Shown here: in pieces, positions 6,330-50,852 of the stretch
Position numbering within the stretch: position 1 is the stretch's first letter
How the letters are laid out: every line of letters begins with the position of its first letter
Position numbers and translations under genes: made by a program
Notes under the pieces: generated by a model
Database searches by the model: none
What the model was told of the DNA's origin: nothing
Seen by the model: only the letters and a program-made list of their open reading frames with translations
NCBI RefSeq assembly: GCF_000005825.2
Contig: NC_013791.2
Location: forward strand, 1,302,001 to 1,366,000
From: Alkalihalophilus pseudofirmus OF4
GTDB lineage: Bacteria > Bacillota > Bacilli > Bacillales > Bacillaceae_D
Reading direction: 5' to 3'
Length of the DNA stretch: 64,000 nucleotides

Positions 6330-6597
6330 CTTGTTTTTACTAAATAAAAAACCCTTCCATCCTTATCTATAAATAAGGACGGAAGGGTTACATCCGCGGT
6401 ACCACCTTGATTGGCATAAAATTATGCCCGCTCTAACATCCGTATCGTGGATGAGACGGTCAGGCTTTTACCAGACTGCTCAAGGGCAGGTTCCGCTACA
6501 ACAGGGGTGATGGTCCTCTCAGCCGGTGAGACCACTCTCTTTTCACATGAAGTATGCGTACTATTCCCAATCAACGCACATTTGATTTAATTTTTAT
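6330..6597 (-). promoter_or_regulatory. Proline-responsive T-box leader of proBAC
   Basis: Read on the minus strand, the leader contains AGAGAG and GCTGAGAG of stem I. It then has a specifier-loop stretch GCGGAACCTGC in which CCT (6488-6490) is a proline codon followed by a purine. Downstream lies the T-box AGGTGGTACCGCGG (6394-6410). The CTTCC-type terminator with a T-run is at about 6340-6388. Uncharged tRNA-Pro would stabilise the antiterminator and allow read-through into proBAC. The T-box and terminator are unmistakable; the codon assignment comes from reading the loop by eye. Confidence 0.92.
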
Positions 6598-10829: not shown

Positions 10830-13325
10830 ATGAAAGGTTATATAACTGAGCTGAAAGGTATATGGCGTCAAAAGAAAATGGTTATCGCTCTATTAGGAAT
10901 TATTCTTATGCCTTTACTTTATGGAGGTGTATTAGTTTGGTCTTTTTGGGATCCGTATGGTCAATTGGATCAGTTGCCAGTAGCTGTAGTAAATGAAGAC
11001 CTGGGGGCAGAGGTAGAAGGGGAACAAATAGAAGCCGGAGCAGAGTTTATTGAAGAGTTGAAAAAAGATCCAGCCTTAGACTTCCATTTCGTTTCAAAGA
11101 AAGAGGCAGAACAAGGATTAGCCAGTCACGATTATTATTTCTATGTTGAAATTCCTGAGAGCTTCTCAGAGGATCTTATTTCATTAAAAGAGTCAAACCC
11201 TGTGAAGGCAAACGTATTTTATGAAGTGAATGAAGAGTATAATTACGTATCATCACAAATAGCTTCAAATGTGATTGAAGAAATGGAAAAAGAATTATCA
11301 GAAACCCTGACATTAGCGTATGTAGAGGTCGCACATGATGCATTTAGTAAGTTGACAGAGGCAGTCATAGCGCTTGAAGAAGGATCCAATGAAATAGCTG
11401 ATGGAAATAAGACTGCGACTGAAAGCATGGAGCGCTTGTCTAAGGGGTTAGTCAGCCTAACATCTGGTTCAAAAGAGCTTACTACAGGGGTGAAAAAGGC
11501 TGCTGAAGGGTCGGATCAGTTAGTTAGTGGGATCGAGCAAGCAAAAAAAGAACTTCAAACATTCAATCAAGCAAATAATGTAGACGCTATATTTAATGAG
11601 ACAAGCCAACTTTTAGAACAAACCATTAATGAGCTAGAACAAGCCGATACAAAAGAAGCAGCTGTGATACTAGATAATCTAGATAACCGTCTCAAACATG
11701 TAAACAGGCAGTTAAACCAAGCAGACGAGCAAGTGCAATTGGTAGAAGAACAAATACGAGGCCTGAAAGACAGCATGGAGGGGATGGAACAGCAGATTAA
11801 TGAAGTCATTCATACGATAAATGATCATACTGACAAGCTGAATCAACAAATGGGAATGACTCATAAAGAGTTAGATGAATGGAATCAAAACGTGAAAGCA
11901 GCCTATGAAAAAGTAGAACAACCTTTGGCTGAACTTAAAAAAATTCAATCTCAAGTGGAGGAGCTTCCGGCCATTCTTAATAACCTATATCCCGAATGGA
12001 GGGAACATGAACATCTCGTTAGTTGGTATGAGGATATTCAAGCGAATGTGAAACGTGTGGAGGGGTTTTACAAAGAGACTGCAGGTTCAATAGAAACGAT
12101 TAATAATGGATTTCCTGAATTATTGAACGGACTCGAGTCACGTCAACTCGAATGGAAACAGTTTAATGAAGAGTTAAACATACAATTGGATCAATCTTCA
12201 ACAAAAATGAATCAATTCTTTGAAGAGGCGACATCTAAAACGGAAGAGCTTCTTATGATTTTAGATCAGCTCTCTAGTGCCTTACAAGAAGCTGAAGCTG
12301 CTATTCCAGATGGTTTAAATGGGGATCAACTAACTGCCTCATTTGAAGAAGAGTATATGAATGTTTTATCGGTTCTTAATAAAGTAAATGAAAAATTGAA
12401 TATGGCCGCTTCTCTTTATCAAAGAGGTGAGGCAGCAAGTGAACAAGCATATAAAGGGGTAGTAGATTTAAATGAAGGTCTGCATGAACTAGTCAATGGA
12501 TCAAATCTTCTGAGTGAGAGCTTAGTTGAAGCAAGTGATGGAGGAAACGAACTCTTTAGCGGTCTTCATACGTTACAAGATGGATCCATTGATTTAGCCC
12601 TTAATATGAATCAGCTTAAAGAAGCGCTGCTTGAGGTTGATCCAAATGAAAAACAAGAAAGCATGCTTGTGAGTCCAGTGCAGTCCAAGAATCAATCGCA
12701 GACTGAAGATTACTCATACGGTGTAGGTTTAAGCCCTTACTTTCTGTCCATTGGGTTATATGTTGGGGGGCTGACTTTATCGATCATTTATCCCTTTAGA
12801 GACCCATTAGGAGAGCATCAATCTGGATGGGAATGGTTTAGCGGAAAGCTAGGAGTTATCTATTCCGTTGGGGTTTTGCAGTCTTCGCTAGTTGCTGTAT
12901 TTCTGCTATATGGGCTTAAGCTTGATGTAGCAAGCAAGATTGGCTTTTTTAGCTTTACCATCTTTACGAGTTTAGCGTTTCTCTCACTTATTTTCTTTTT
13001 GGTAAGTGTCCTTGATAATCCTGGCCGGTTTGCAGCGATCATTTTATTAATCCTGCAATTAGGCGGAAGTGCGGGAAGCTTTCCGGTTGAATTGTTAGCA
13101 TCTCCCTTGCAAACTCTGCATGGCTGGCTGCCAATGACTTACTCTGTACTTGGATTTAGGTCGGTCATTTTTATGGGGGTGAATCCTTTGCTTTGGGACA
13201 GCGTTCGCTTTTTATGCATCTTATTAATGATTTGTACAGCAGGGGCTTTCGTTTATTTTATAGTTACACATCATAAGCGGAATAAAAAAGAATATCCTAC
13301 AACTTCAGCAGCTGATAAAGAATGA
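10830..13325 (+). CDS. YhgE/Pip family membrane protein
   Basis: The 831-residue protein has one N-terminal membrane segment (about residues 17-38), a long extracytoplasmic region and about five C-terminal membrane helices (about 640-815). The extracytoplasmic part is rich in coiled coil (about 170-550) and carries recurring ELxxGSxxLxxG blocks (for example LVNGSNLLSES, LQDGSIDLA). This is the YhgE/Pip architecture, with a C-terminal ABC-2-like membrane domain related to phage infection protein and Esx/type VII accessory proteins. The ATG at 10830 follows TTGGAGTGGTTGC; the earlier TTG at 10797 would overlap the operator. Its neighbour is the TetR repressor, a usual pairing. Confidence 0.88.
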   Translation: MKGYITELKGIWRQKKMVIALLGIILMPLLYGGVLVWSFWDPYGQLDQLPVAVVNEDLGAEVEGEQIEAGAEFIEELKKDPALDFHFVSKKEAEQGLASHDYYFYVEIPESFSEDLISLKESNPVKANVFYEVNEEYNYVSSQIASNVIEEMEKELSETLTLAYVEVAHDAFSKLTEAVIALEEGSNEIADGNKTATESMERLSKGLVSLTSGSKELTTGVKKAAEGSDQLVSGIEQAKKELQTFNQANNVDAIFNETSQLLEQTINELEQADTKEAAVILDNLDNRLKHVNRQLNQADEQVQLVEEQIRGLKDSMEGMEQQINEVIHTINDHTDKLNQQMGMTHKELDEWNQNVKAAYEKVEQPLAELKKIQSQVEELPAILNNLYPEWREHEHLVSWYEDIQANVKRVEGFYKETAGSIETINNGFPELLNGLESRQLEWKQFNEELNIQLDQSSTKMNQFFEEATSKTEELLMILDQLSSALQEAEAAIPDGLNGDQLTASFEEEYMNVLSVLNKVNEKLNMAASLYQRGEAASEQAYKGVVDLNEGLHELVNGSNLLSESLVEASDGGNELFSGLHTLQDGSIDLALNMNQLKEALLEVDPNEKQESMLVSPVQSKNQSQTEDYSYGVGLSPYFLSIGLYVGGLTLSIIYPFRDPLGEHQSGWEWFSGKLGVIYSVGVLQSSLVAVFLLYGLKLDVASKIGFFSFTIFTSLAFLSLIFFLVSVLDNPGRFAAIILLILQLGGSAGSFPVELLASPLQTLHGWLPMTYSVLGFRSVIFMGVNPLLWDSVRFLCILLMICTAGAFVYFIVTHHKRNKKEYPTTSAADKE

Positions 13326-13383
13326 ATGTCTCAACTTTAATTGGGCACATTACAGGTATCAGATTCGTATTGGAGGCAAATGT

Positions 13384-14391
13384 ATGAAGAATATCCAATT
13401 AACCGCATCAGAGATTGGTACTCTGTGGATGACCTATCAACAAAAAACGATGCTGCTAAGGATGATTGAACATTTTCTATTGCATACTGAAGATAAGAAA
13501 TCCAAGAAAATAATGATGGGGCTCCATAAAGATATATCTACATTTACAATAAAAATTGAAAAATTATTTATCCAAGAAGGGCATTCTATTCCATTAGGAT
13601 ACACTGAGCAAGATGTTAATTTAGAAGCTCCTAAGTTATTTGATCAACATTTTGATATTATGTGTATGAAACTGATGAAGGCTATTAGTATGGGGATACA
13701 TGTATTGCATGTAAATATGGCCTATAGAGAAGATTTATTAATCCTTTTTAGGGATCTTACCGCCCTGACTCAAAAATATTACAATCAATGCTCTATGTAT
13801 TTAGCAGAGAAGGGCTTGCTTACAAGACCGCCTTATTTATCAAATGATCAAGGGATCCAATTTGTTCAAGATAAAGATTACTTCAGGGGAAACAAGCTGG
13901 TTGGGGATGAACGTGTGCTAAATGCCATTGAAGTGGCCCATCTGTATCATGCCATTGAAAATAACACCATTGGATTAACCTTAATGATTGGCTTTGCTCA
14001 ATCTGCTAAAGAAAAAGATATTCAAGACTACTTTCTTAAAGGAAAAAAGTTAGCTAATCAAGTGGTTGATGACATTAGTCAAATCATGAAAAATGATGAC
14101 ATCCAATTTACAAAGCCACCAAACGGAGCGTTGACTTCATCTACTATTTCACCATTTTCAGATAAGCTTATGATGTATTGTACAAGCTTGTTATGCAGCT
14201 TTTCACTAGGGAGCAACGCATTTGGTACGGCATTTAGTCTTAGAAACGACCTGCCATTAAAGGTTGCATCACTTGGAAAGTCAATTTTTGATTTTGCCTC
14301 AGAAGGTGCTAAGTTAATGGCCAAGCATGGCTGGATGGAAGAGCCTCCGCAAATGATTGATCGCAGAGCTATTATAAAGTCAAAAAAATAA
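13384..14391 (+). CDS. DUF3231 family protein
   Basis: This 335-residue soluble protein is predicted to be almost all helix and contains two related halves of roughly 165 residues. Each half opens with a similar block (LTASEIGTLWMTYQQKTM and LNAIEVAHLYHAIENNTI). This tandem helical-bundle layout is that of DUF3231, a family common in Bacillus and thought to be ferritin-like. Function is unknown. Start ATG follows TTGGAGGCAAATGT. The gene stands alone and shares its terminator with the convergent peroxiredoxin-like gene. Confidence 0.8.
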   Translation: MKNIQLTASEIGTLWMTYQQKTMLLRMIEHFLLHTEDKKSKKIMMGLHKDISTFTIKIEKLFIQEGHSIPLGYTEQDVNLEAPKLFDQHFDIMCMKLMKAISMGIHVLHVNMAYREDLLILFRDLTALTQKYYNQCSMYLAEKGLLTRPPYLSNDQGIQFVQDKDYFRGNKLVGDERVLNAIEVAHLYHAIENNTIGLTLMIGFAQSAKEKDIQDYFLKGKKLANQVVDDISQIMKNDDIQFTKPPNGALTSSTISPFSDKLMMYCTSLLCSFSLGSNAFGTAFSLRNDLPLKVASLGKSIFDFASEGAKLMAKHGWMEEPPQMIDRRAIIKSKK

Positions 14392-14434: not shown

Positions 14435-15004
14435 CTATACGGAATTTGCTTTTTCTATTAGGGTAGAGATGTCTGCGTGATCATTTGGAGACTTGTCTAT
14501 GTGATGCCAGACTACTTCATTATTTGAATCAAACAACCAAGCGCCGCCTTGAACTTCAACATCAGATTTCTTAATGGCTTCTTTAACAGCTTTTTTGTCT
14601 TGAGCATTTGAGGGAAGAGTAAAATTCCCTTTAAATAAGCTGGATACAGAATGAATGAATAGTTTCCATTTAGACAGGGATTGGTGACCTAGTTTGTTAT
14701 ACAAAGAAAGCGTTGAATCACCGTAAAAAGGAAATGGGTACGAAGAGAGTGTATCTTTGTATTTCGTAAGATACTCTTCGTCGTGTGGAGTGACAATGAA
14801 TATCTCTACATTTCTCTTTTTGAATTGTTCGTAAGACTCACGCACCTGCGTGAGGAAATCTCTATAAATTGGTCAACCAAGGTGACGAACGAATAATACA
14901 TAACAAGGACTTTCTTTGACCAACTCATGAAATGTAATGTCAGTCCCATCGGCCGCCTCAAGCTTTGTATTTAATTGATCTTCAGTCATTTTAGTAGTCA
15001 TCAT
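14435..15004 (-). CDS. Peroxiredoxin-like protein with in-frame TGA at the catalytic Cys (candidate selenoprotein)
   Basis: Reading begins at ATG 15004 behind a near-perfect AAAGGAGGTCAAGC. It continues in one frame to 14435 (189 residues), broken only by TGA at 14873-14875, codon 44. The context is YVLFVRHLG-TGA-PIYRDFL; thioredoxin-fold Prx-like2/AhpC-TSA-type proteins have RH[FL]GCPxC here, so TGA replaces the attacking Cys. The second Cys of CxxC is Tyr in this copy. Downstream the fold continues normally (FIVTPHDEEY, a PFPFYGD motif and the GGAWLFDSN strand). An 18-nt spacer follows the TGA, then a 7-bp hairpin with loop AGGU that fits a bacterial SECIS. I favour a selenocysteine-containing redox enzyme; the alternative is a nonsense mutation. 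No frameshift or other damage is visible. Confidence 0.72.
14837..14854 (-). promoter_or_regulatory. Candidate bacterial SECIS hairpin
   Basis: On the minus strand CTCACGC-AGGT-GCGTGAG forms seven Watson-Crick pairs with a four-base loop. G is at loop position 2. The loop begins 25 nt after the TGA, inside the 16-37 nt window described for bacterial SECIS elements. The GCAGGT core resembles the E. coli fdhF SECIS apex. Confidence 0.65.
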
Positions 15005-15201
15005 GCTTGACCTCCTTTTCTAGAGGATAAAAGTTTTAGCAAATAATAGCAACTAATCCCCCTTCAGCACATATTTTTGTTAAAGGAGAAGCGGATTGAG
15101 ATATGGTCCTATAGTCATAAGAAATGATATGTGAGAAAATGAAATGAAAAATAAGGAATATACATGTGAAATATGGTGGTAATGGGCTACAGGGGGGTAT
15201 T

Positions 15202-37252: not shown

Positions 37253-37356
37253 TTTTTGTCAAAAGAAAAGTTAGGCAATGTATATTGCTAAATAAGCAGT
37301 AATATACATAAAACACCTGTTCAATTGAACTATTATTTGATCCGATTGTCATCATC

Positions 37357-37425
37357 ACTCATAGTCAAGCCATTTACGGCAGCTTGGTAGAAACTTGTGA
37401 GCCATATCCTCACGATTATACGAGT
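37357..37425 (-). ncRNA. Guanine riboswitch aptamer (purine class)
   Basis: The minus strand reads ACTCGTATAATCG, GGATATGGCTCAC, a loop with TTTCTACC and ACCGTAAAT-like GCCGTAAATGGC, closing with GACTATGAGT. P1 pairs ACTCGTAT with ATGAGT. C in the CTATGAGT junction marks guanine rather than adenine specificity. Ligand binding should favour the terminator at 37201-37252. Confidence 0.92.
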
Positions 37426-37494
37426 TTGTTTTATATTGTTTGTGTATAGGGGTTAGTATAGAGTATCATGTCTATTTTTTAAAGAGTTTTTTGA

Positions 37495-50387: not shown

Positions 50388-50518
50388 CTCTTATCTCTCA
50401 GACAAAGTCTGTTGGATGTAGCACCGTGCCATTGATTAGTTTAAATCATCAATTATAAAAGAAAGGTCGGTTGCTGGGCGTCATAGGGCCAATTCCCTCA
50501 GCCTACTCGTAATAAGAG
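50388..50518 (-). ncRNA. SAM riboswitch (S-box) of mtnKA
   Basis: Minus-strand reading: CTCTTAT of P1, the GGCTGAGGGA and GGCCCTATGACGCC blocks, CAGCAACC, then GGTGCTACATCC and a closing GATAAGAG. These are the S-box consensus elements in order. SAM binding should favour the terminator at 50342-50372. Confidence 0.95.
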
Positions 50519-50748: not shown

Positions 50749-50852
50749 CTCTTATCAAGAGCAGGCGGAGGGACAAGCCCAGTGAAGCCCGGCAACCGGT
50801 TTGAAAAACACGGTGCTAATTCTTGCAGCGATTATTAGCTGATAGATAAGAG
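50749..50852 (+). ncRNA. SAM riboswitch (S-box) of mtnWXBD
   Basis: CTCTTATC-AAGAG, GGCGGAGGGAC, AAGCCCAGTGAAGCCC, GGCAACC, GGTGCTAATTC and the closing GATAAGAG occur in canonical order. With the terminator at 50869 it forms the second S-box of this divergent region. Confidence 0.95.

Follow-up and report, generated by a model that had tools for sequence, protein, structure and literature searches.

The window, i.e., the whole stretch of 64,000 nucleotides analysed here, lies within contig C1 (3,858,997 bases) of the 4.25-Mb genome of Alkalihalophilus pseudofirmus OF4. On its minus strand, ORF reading gives a frame that opens with an ATG at 15004, closes with a TAG at 14437-14435 and contains a single internal stop, a TGA in the context RHLG-U-PIYR (Table 1). 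The preliminary description of this locus had reported a strong Shine-Dalgarno sequence, a 189-codon frame broken only by this TGA in this residue context and a perfect 7-bp hairpin downstream, and re-reading of the sequence bears out each of these. It had also expected conventional gene calling to truncate the gene, and with translation table 11 the call is indeed a GTG-started ORF of 136 residues (14435-14845), a fragment that lacks the active site. The first ATG is missing in another genome of the same genus (G008), so that translation probably starts at the second ATG (15001), which would give a protein of 188 amino acids with Sec at residue 43. Beyond the stop codon, the terminator-like hairpin suggests that transcription ends there.

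Table 1. Features of the TGA-containing redoxin gene, in window coordinates
Feature	Position	Strand	Basis
Putative selenoprotein gene, SelL/PRXL2-like redoxin, 189 codons including one UGA	14435..15004	-	ORF reading, relatives
TGA predicted to be read as selenocysteine, residue 44 (43 from second ATG)	14873..14875	-	homologous TGA in 91/91 loci
Shine-Dalgarno AAAGGAGG	15011..15018	-	begins 14 nt upstream of ATG
Predicted SECIS hairpin CTCACGC-AGGT-GCGTGAG, within coding sequence	14837..14854	-	fold and conservation
Intrinsic-terminator-like hairpin and T run, directly after stop codon	14395..14434	-	1 found; shuffles' mean 0.5

Over both strands of the window, 8 of 2812 TGAs are followed by a 7-bp Watson-Crick hairpin at SECIS spacing with a G at loop base 1 or 2, and two TGAs are preceded by 40 or more open codons and followed by 100 or more. 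The TGA of this gene is the only one with both the hairpin and the long, otherwise open frame. Elsewhere the window holds a T-box leader (6372-6583), a purine riboswitch (37342-37443) and a pair of SAM riboswitches, one on each strand (50388-50518 and 50749-50852).

Conservation of the TGA codon and of the hairpin

When the window's protein (P0001) was used as query, 4 of the 41 genomes of a family sample gave a match, each with TGA; the four comprise the source genome, a second genome of its species and two others. A three-row alignment (A1) matched 70 of the 397 genomes of an order sample, again counting its own, and all 70 carry the in-frame TGA. Three of these 70 rows have a further stop beside it, a TAA in G042 and G043 and a TAG in G210, where the copy is cut short, indicating that this gene can decay. 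A scan of named genome contigs gave 18 loci, the closest named relative found being Alkalihalophilus marmarensis with a protein 96% identical. The TGA stands at the homologous codon in all 91 loci that were read, several of which repeat one gene. Since the search models had Cys at the Sec column, close Cys forms of the gene would have been detected; none occurs among the matches obtained at order level (397 genomes). A class sample of 398 genomes gave matches in 14: 12 show TGA, four of which had already turned up at order level, and the other two are weak matches (E 4.9e-12 and 1.1e-11) to Cys proteins. The phylum sample gave 19 matches in 14 of 398 genomes. Two were strong, the own genome and G123, both with TGA, and among the 17 weak ones three have Cys and no stop and 14 have TGA; 13 of these 14 could be read, one locus (L125) giving no reading, and all 13 have the homologous TGA in more distant Prx-like proteins. 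The plasmid collection held no match to P0001, and one weak match (E 3e-4) to a relative.

Downstream of the TGA, dN was lower than dS in nine of ten hand-picked pairs, and the tenth differed by one nonsynonymous change only; pairs within the window's own genus hold few changes, too few for a selection test. At the level of these sequence comparisons, purifying selection after the TGA is shown for the relatives.

The hairpin begins 18 nt after the TGA and has a 7-bp stem and an AGGT loop that starts 25 nt after the TGA, with G at loop position 2, precisely the geometry first described for this locus. The predicted fold of 57 nt contains this stem at -14.8 kcal/mol, with a z of only -2.09 and 6 of 200 shuffles equally stable. 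The bSECIS criteria given in PMC13188914 are a loop of 3-9 nt, a stem of 4-16 bp, a G at one of the first two loop positions, a spacing of 16-37 nt and an MFE of at most -7.5, and the hairpin falls within all of them. It agrees with the bSECIS consensus in its loop of 4 nt, whose first positions carry G followed by G/U, in the 7-bp stem, in the 25 nt from UGA to loop and in an energy below -7.5 kcal/mol. The order-sample hairpin differs from that consensus in being nearly invariant, CTBRYGC-AGTT-GCGYRAG, with AGGT in the window's genus.

The preliminary description had pointed to an alignment of orthologues as a check, and in it both elements are kept: the codon that is TGA does not shift, and all 76 distinct 60-nt stretches have the hairpin at an identical offset. 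AGTT forms the loop in 74 of them and AGGT in the two from the window's genus; all seven pairs are complete in 69, while seven lack one pair, four at the stem end and three inside the stem. In an alignment made for covariation (A3; 75 distinct 48-nt rows from the 91 loci, the truncated L101 included) 98.7% of stem cells are paired, compared with at most 61.5% in slid controls. Changes on both sides were found at three pairs and in 32 cells (CG/UA in 18 sequences, AU/GC in 13 and CG/UA in one). None of 500 shuffles reached the number of cells paired, the number of doubly changed cells or the covariation score; three reached the number of double-change pairs and 30 that of further pair types.

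The hairpin lies within the coding sequence and encodes the peptide LxQLRE, among the best conserved parts of the redoxin protein, so that it might be asked whether its conservation merely follows from that of the peptide. Against this, the synonymous choice is fixed where the protein would allow freedom: Gln is CAG in 76 of 76 cases (45% elsewhere in these genes), Leu is TTG in 74 of 74 (14%), Arg is CGY in 75 of 75 (39%), Thr is ACG in 38 of 38 (27%), Glu is GAG in 54 of 57 (32%) and Lys is AAG in 16 of 16 (33%), counts that come from related, non-independent sequences and are not probabilities. The variable positions, moreover, change jointly and keep their pairs. Fixed codons together with compensatory changes mean that constraint on the protein fails to explain the conservation of the hairpin, and we regard conservation through the peptide alone as very improbable.

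A SECIS covariance model built from this gene (R1) gave 12 matches at E <=1 in its own genome, with 150 of 961 candidates scored. The best was the gene itself (E 1.4e-16). The second (E 2.9e-4) lies in a DHH-type phosphoesterase-like frame with the TGA out of frame, and was judged by eye to be a chance match.

Selenocysteine machinery and the reading of the UGA

The own genome codes for a complete set of Sec genes, whose lack had been named beforehand as a reason to abandon the selenoprotein reading. We found selA (570.9 bits against a cut-off of 267.9), selB (352 against 242), selD (424 against 125) and a tRNA-Sec gene (RF01852, 58 bits against 47) with anticodon TCA, the only one of 19 matches to exceed its cut-off. 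All four lie within about 9.1 kb. The other observations that would have spoken against Sec were looked for as well, and there is no further stop in the window's frame and no close Cys relative was seen.

Several genes of this cluster deserve mention in their own right. The selD gene (L002:8487-9539, plus strand, C1 about 2.19 Mb) is itself a selenoprotein candidate, with an in-frame TGA in GUGCK followed by TGACGCAAGTTTTGCGTCA; the lowest-energy fold of this stretch is a structure other than a simple hairpin. Between selA and selD there is a SelW/Rdx-like ORF (L002:8120-8365, minus strand; TIGR02174, 58.8 bits against a cut-off of 34.2) that has both an in-frame TGA, in CMMU, and a hairpin of 6 bp, CCGTGA-GTC-TCACGG. 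Neither the selD hairpin nor the SelW-like one was found in the R1 run on this genome. Between selD and selB are genes for a phosphonate-type ABC transporter and a glycosyltransferase (L002:9576-12028 and 12509-13534, minus strand). The binding protein of the former scores 141.1 against 250 for the putative selenate binding protein TIGR04553, and the glycosyltransferase 72.6 against 300 for the selenosugar synthase SenB (TIGR04348), and in both cases another family fits better; a role in selenium uptake or in a further selenium product is possible. Formate dehydrogenase (TIGR01591) gave six matches in the genome, none over the cut-off and none with an internal stop.

Across the order sample the gene goes with SelB. 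SelB exceeded its cut-off in 179 of the 397 genomes, all 70 gene carriers among them (best E <=2.1e-97, compared with about 1e-49 to 1e-59 for background elongation factors), and the gene is absent from all 218 genomes in which SelB did not exceed the cut-off (hypergeometric 6e-29, a value that ignores kinship). SelB over the cut-off with the gene absent was seen in 109 of the 397 genomes, including G010 of the same genus (best E 2.9e-104).

These data bear on the possibility that the TGA is read not as Sec but as Trp, by general reassignment of the codon or by leaky termination. The frame would be open whichever residue is inserted. However, TGA terminates 9 of the window's 36 stop-to-stop frames that reach 250 codons or more, so the codon is not generally reassigned; all 70 carriers are SelB-positive, a SECIS-like hairpin follows the TGA, and the best solved relative has the first Cys of a CxxC motif at the aligned position. 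Little credence can be given to such a reading. The best explanation, of which we are close to certain on the sequence evidence, is that this would be a genuine bacterial selenoprotein gene with its UGA read as Sec, a reading strongly supported by the conserved TGA and hairpin, the co-occurrence with SelB and the Sec machinery. Less probable than any other is a pseudogene, i.e., a Cys codon recently turned into a stop by mutation, with a hairpin formed by chance: nonsense changes in genes are common, another genome (G210) has a truncated copy and the window's branch is long, but the TGA at one codon in every locus read and in all order carriers, the covariation and codon constraint of the hairpin, the purifying selection in relatives and the co-occurrence with SelB all contradict it. 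The preliminary description had argued that such a mutation would not explain the hairpin or the intact frame. All three alternatives were rejected: a pseudogene, a reassigned codon and a hairpin conserved for its peptide alone.

The pathway formed by SelD, SelA, SelB and tRNA-Sec is established in other bacteria. In A. pseudofirmus SelD would produce selenophosphate and SelA would convert Ser-tRNA-Sec into Sec-tRNA-Sec; SelB with Sec-tRNA-Sec would then bind the hairpin downstream of the UGA, and the ribosome would insert Sec in place of stopping. With selenium absent, the product would end after 42-43 residues.

Family, active-site motif and proposed mechanism

Pfam places the window's protein in the Prx-like2/AhpC-TSA superfamily, with scores above gathering for AhpC-TSA_2 (52.4 against 27), AhpC-TSA (37.2 against 26) and Redoxin (26.7 against 26.6). 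The profile of an alignment of 45 sequences (A2, in which each group of loci at 80% identity, out of the 91, has one representative, the truncated L101 being left out) had as its best solved relative the prostamide/prostaglandin F synthase (PDB 9us9), a member of the PRXL2/SelU type, in a match of almost full length (positions 11-180 of 185) at a similarity that is low (40.5 bits). The Sec column aligns to the first Cys of GCVVC in that enzyme, i.e., the UGA stands at the position of the redox Cys of homologues, and the solved protein has Cys where the window's family is predicted to have Sec. All 45 members of A2 also match NCBIfam NF040769 (SelL-related redox protein) at E <=0.001 (best E 3.3e-33), yet nine of nine members scored singly remained below its cut-off of 120 bits (80.7-109.9 bits; P0001 82.6). 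The assignment to a Prx-like2/SelL/SelU-type family made in the preliminary description therefore holds at superfamily level, by Pfam and the solved-structure profile, and falls short of the NF040769 cut-off. On this evidence we class the predicted protein as a Prx-like2/SelL-like redoxin with a thioredoxin fold.

Of the 91 loci, 79 have the motif UPxC and 12 have UPxY; the window's gene, with UPIY, is one of the latter. One Cys is left in the window's protein, C34, and seven UPYY proteins are without any Cys. In a tree of 81 rows, from which loci with duplicate or short proteins were dropped, the UPxY label requires two changes, which suggests that the partner Cys was lost twice. The tree has long branches, that of the window's clade (1.9 changes per column) among them, and this length together with the lost partner Cys could reflect an altered function.

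Read through in full, the gene would yield a redoxin of 188-189 amino acids with a thioredoxin fold, placed in the Prx-like2 superfamily together with SelL, SelU/PRXL2 and prostamide synthase. Sec would take the place of the first Cys of CxxC and would most likely act as the nucleophile in the reduction of a peroxide or a disulfide. The UPxC pair of most relatives would form a selenenylsulfide. With the partner Cys replaced by Tyr in the window's lineage, the oxidised Sec would have to be resolved by C34 or by an external thiol (bacillithiol, thioredoxin), and we infer a one-selenol mechanism for the UPxY lineages.

Taking the results together, we consider it rather more probable than otherwise that Sec-obligate PRXL2/SelL-type redoxins have spread through the Bacilli, with TGA and a near-identical SECIS in every close member found; that with SelD and SelW they may keep the Sec machinery in genomes whose formate dehydrogenase-like genes are without in-frame TGA; and that two lineages, the window's included, would work with one selenol and no partner Cys in the motif, seven sequences being Cys-free. 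If this is true, ordinary gene calls in many bacilli would have missed a redox function together with its active-site residue, and there would be a concrete protein behind the use of selenium by these organisms. The Cys-free members would be natural redoxins relying on one selenol, in which the question of why selenium rather than sulfur is used becomes directly testable.

Described selenoproteins, gene neighbourhoods and further candidates

SelL, which is defined by a UxxU diselenide, has in common with the window's family the thioredoxin fold, the Prx-like character and Sec at the redox motif. It differs in that motif, UxxU being absent from the 91 loci read, all of which have UPxC or UPxY. 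In the parts of PMC2398784 consulted, several Prx-like selenoproteins are described and SelL is listed among the families of both prokaryotes and eukaryotes, so that bacterial selenoproteins of SelL type are already in print. The 2026 catalogue of 119 selenoprotein families (PMC13188914) has, in the portion available, no entry named NF040769 or SelL, and the terms 'Bacill', 'Bacillota' and 'Firmicutes' are absent from its main text. Its nearest entries are a Prx-like thiol:disulfide oxidoreductase (PF00578, UxxC), a Redoxin (PF08534, UxxC) and an AhpC/TSA protein (cd02970, UxxS), which have the broad fold and a UxxC-type motif in common with the window's family. Three selenoproteins in three families are given for Firmicutes/Bacillales in the excerpt of PMC1794560, and the family is not named in the passages and table section seen of PMC5029168 or in the passages seen of PMC9312934, and a term search of PMC12013277 gave no hits. 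Our literature search found no paper that mentions NF040769 and none under phrases for Bacillus or Bacillales selenoproteins; the sole match for pseudofirmus and selenocysteine concerns, in the part retrieved, gut metabolic networks. The family may already be named in RefSeq, and as far as we have seen this is a Sec-only redoxin subfamily of Bacilli, of a known kind and without a name of its own.

The gene neighbourhoods of 44 loci have no widely shared partner, the largest cluster occurring in 7 of them. In four neighbourhoods (L071, L074, L085 and L087) a divergent gene of one cluster adjoins the selenoprotein gene; of these four, the L087 copy was compared with Pfam and identified as a Sulf_transp protein (PF04143) of the YeeE/YedE type.

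The searches also brought up other TGA-containing redoxins. L132 (G123:C55:163126-163395) has the context LRGTW-U-PNCR and a hairpin CAGCTG-GTC-CAGCTG, and is in frame with a long C-terminal part, giving 459 residues from stop to stop when the TGA is read through. Finally, L116 and L117 (in G1138 and G1009) each consist of two adjacent Prx-like genes, both with an in-frame TGA and a similar hairpin, and these pairs are candidates for tandem selenoprotein genes outside the class.
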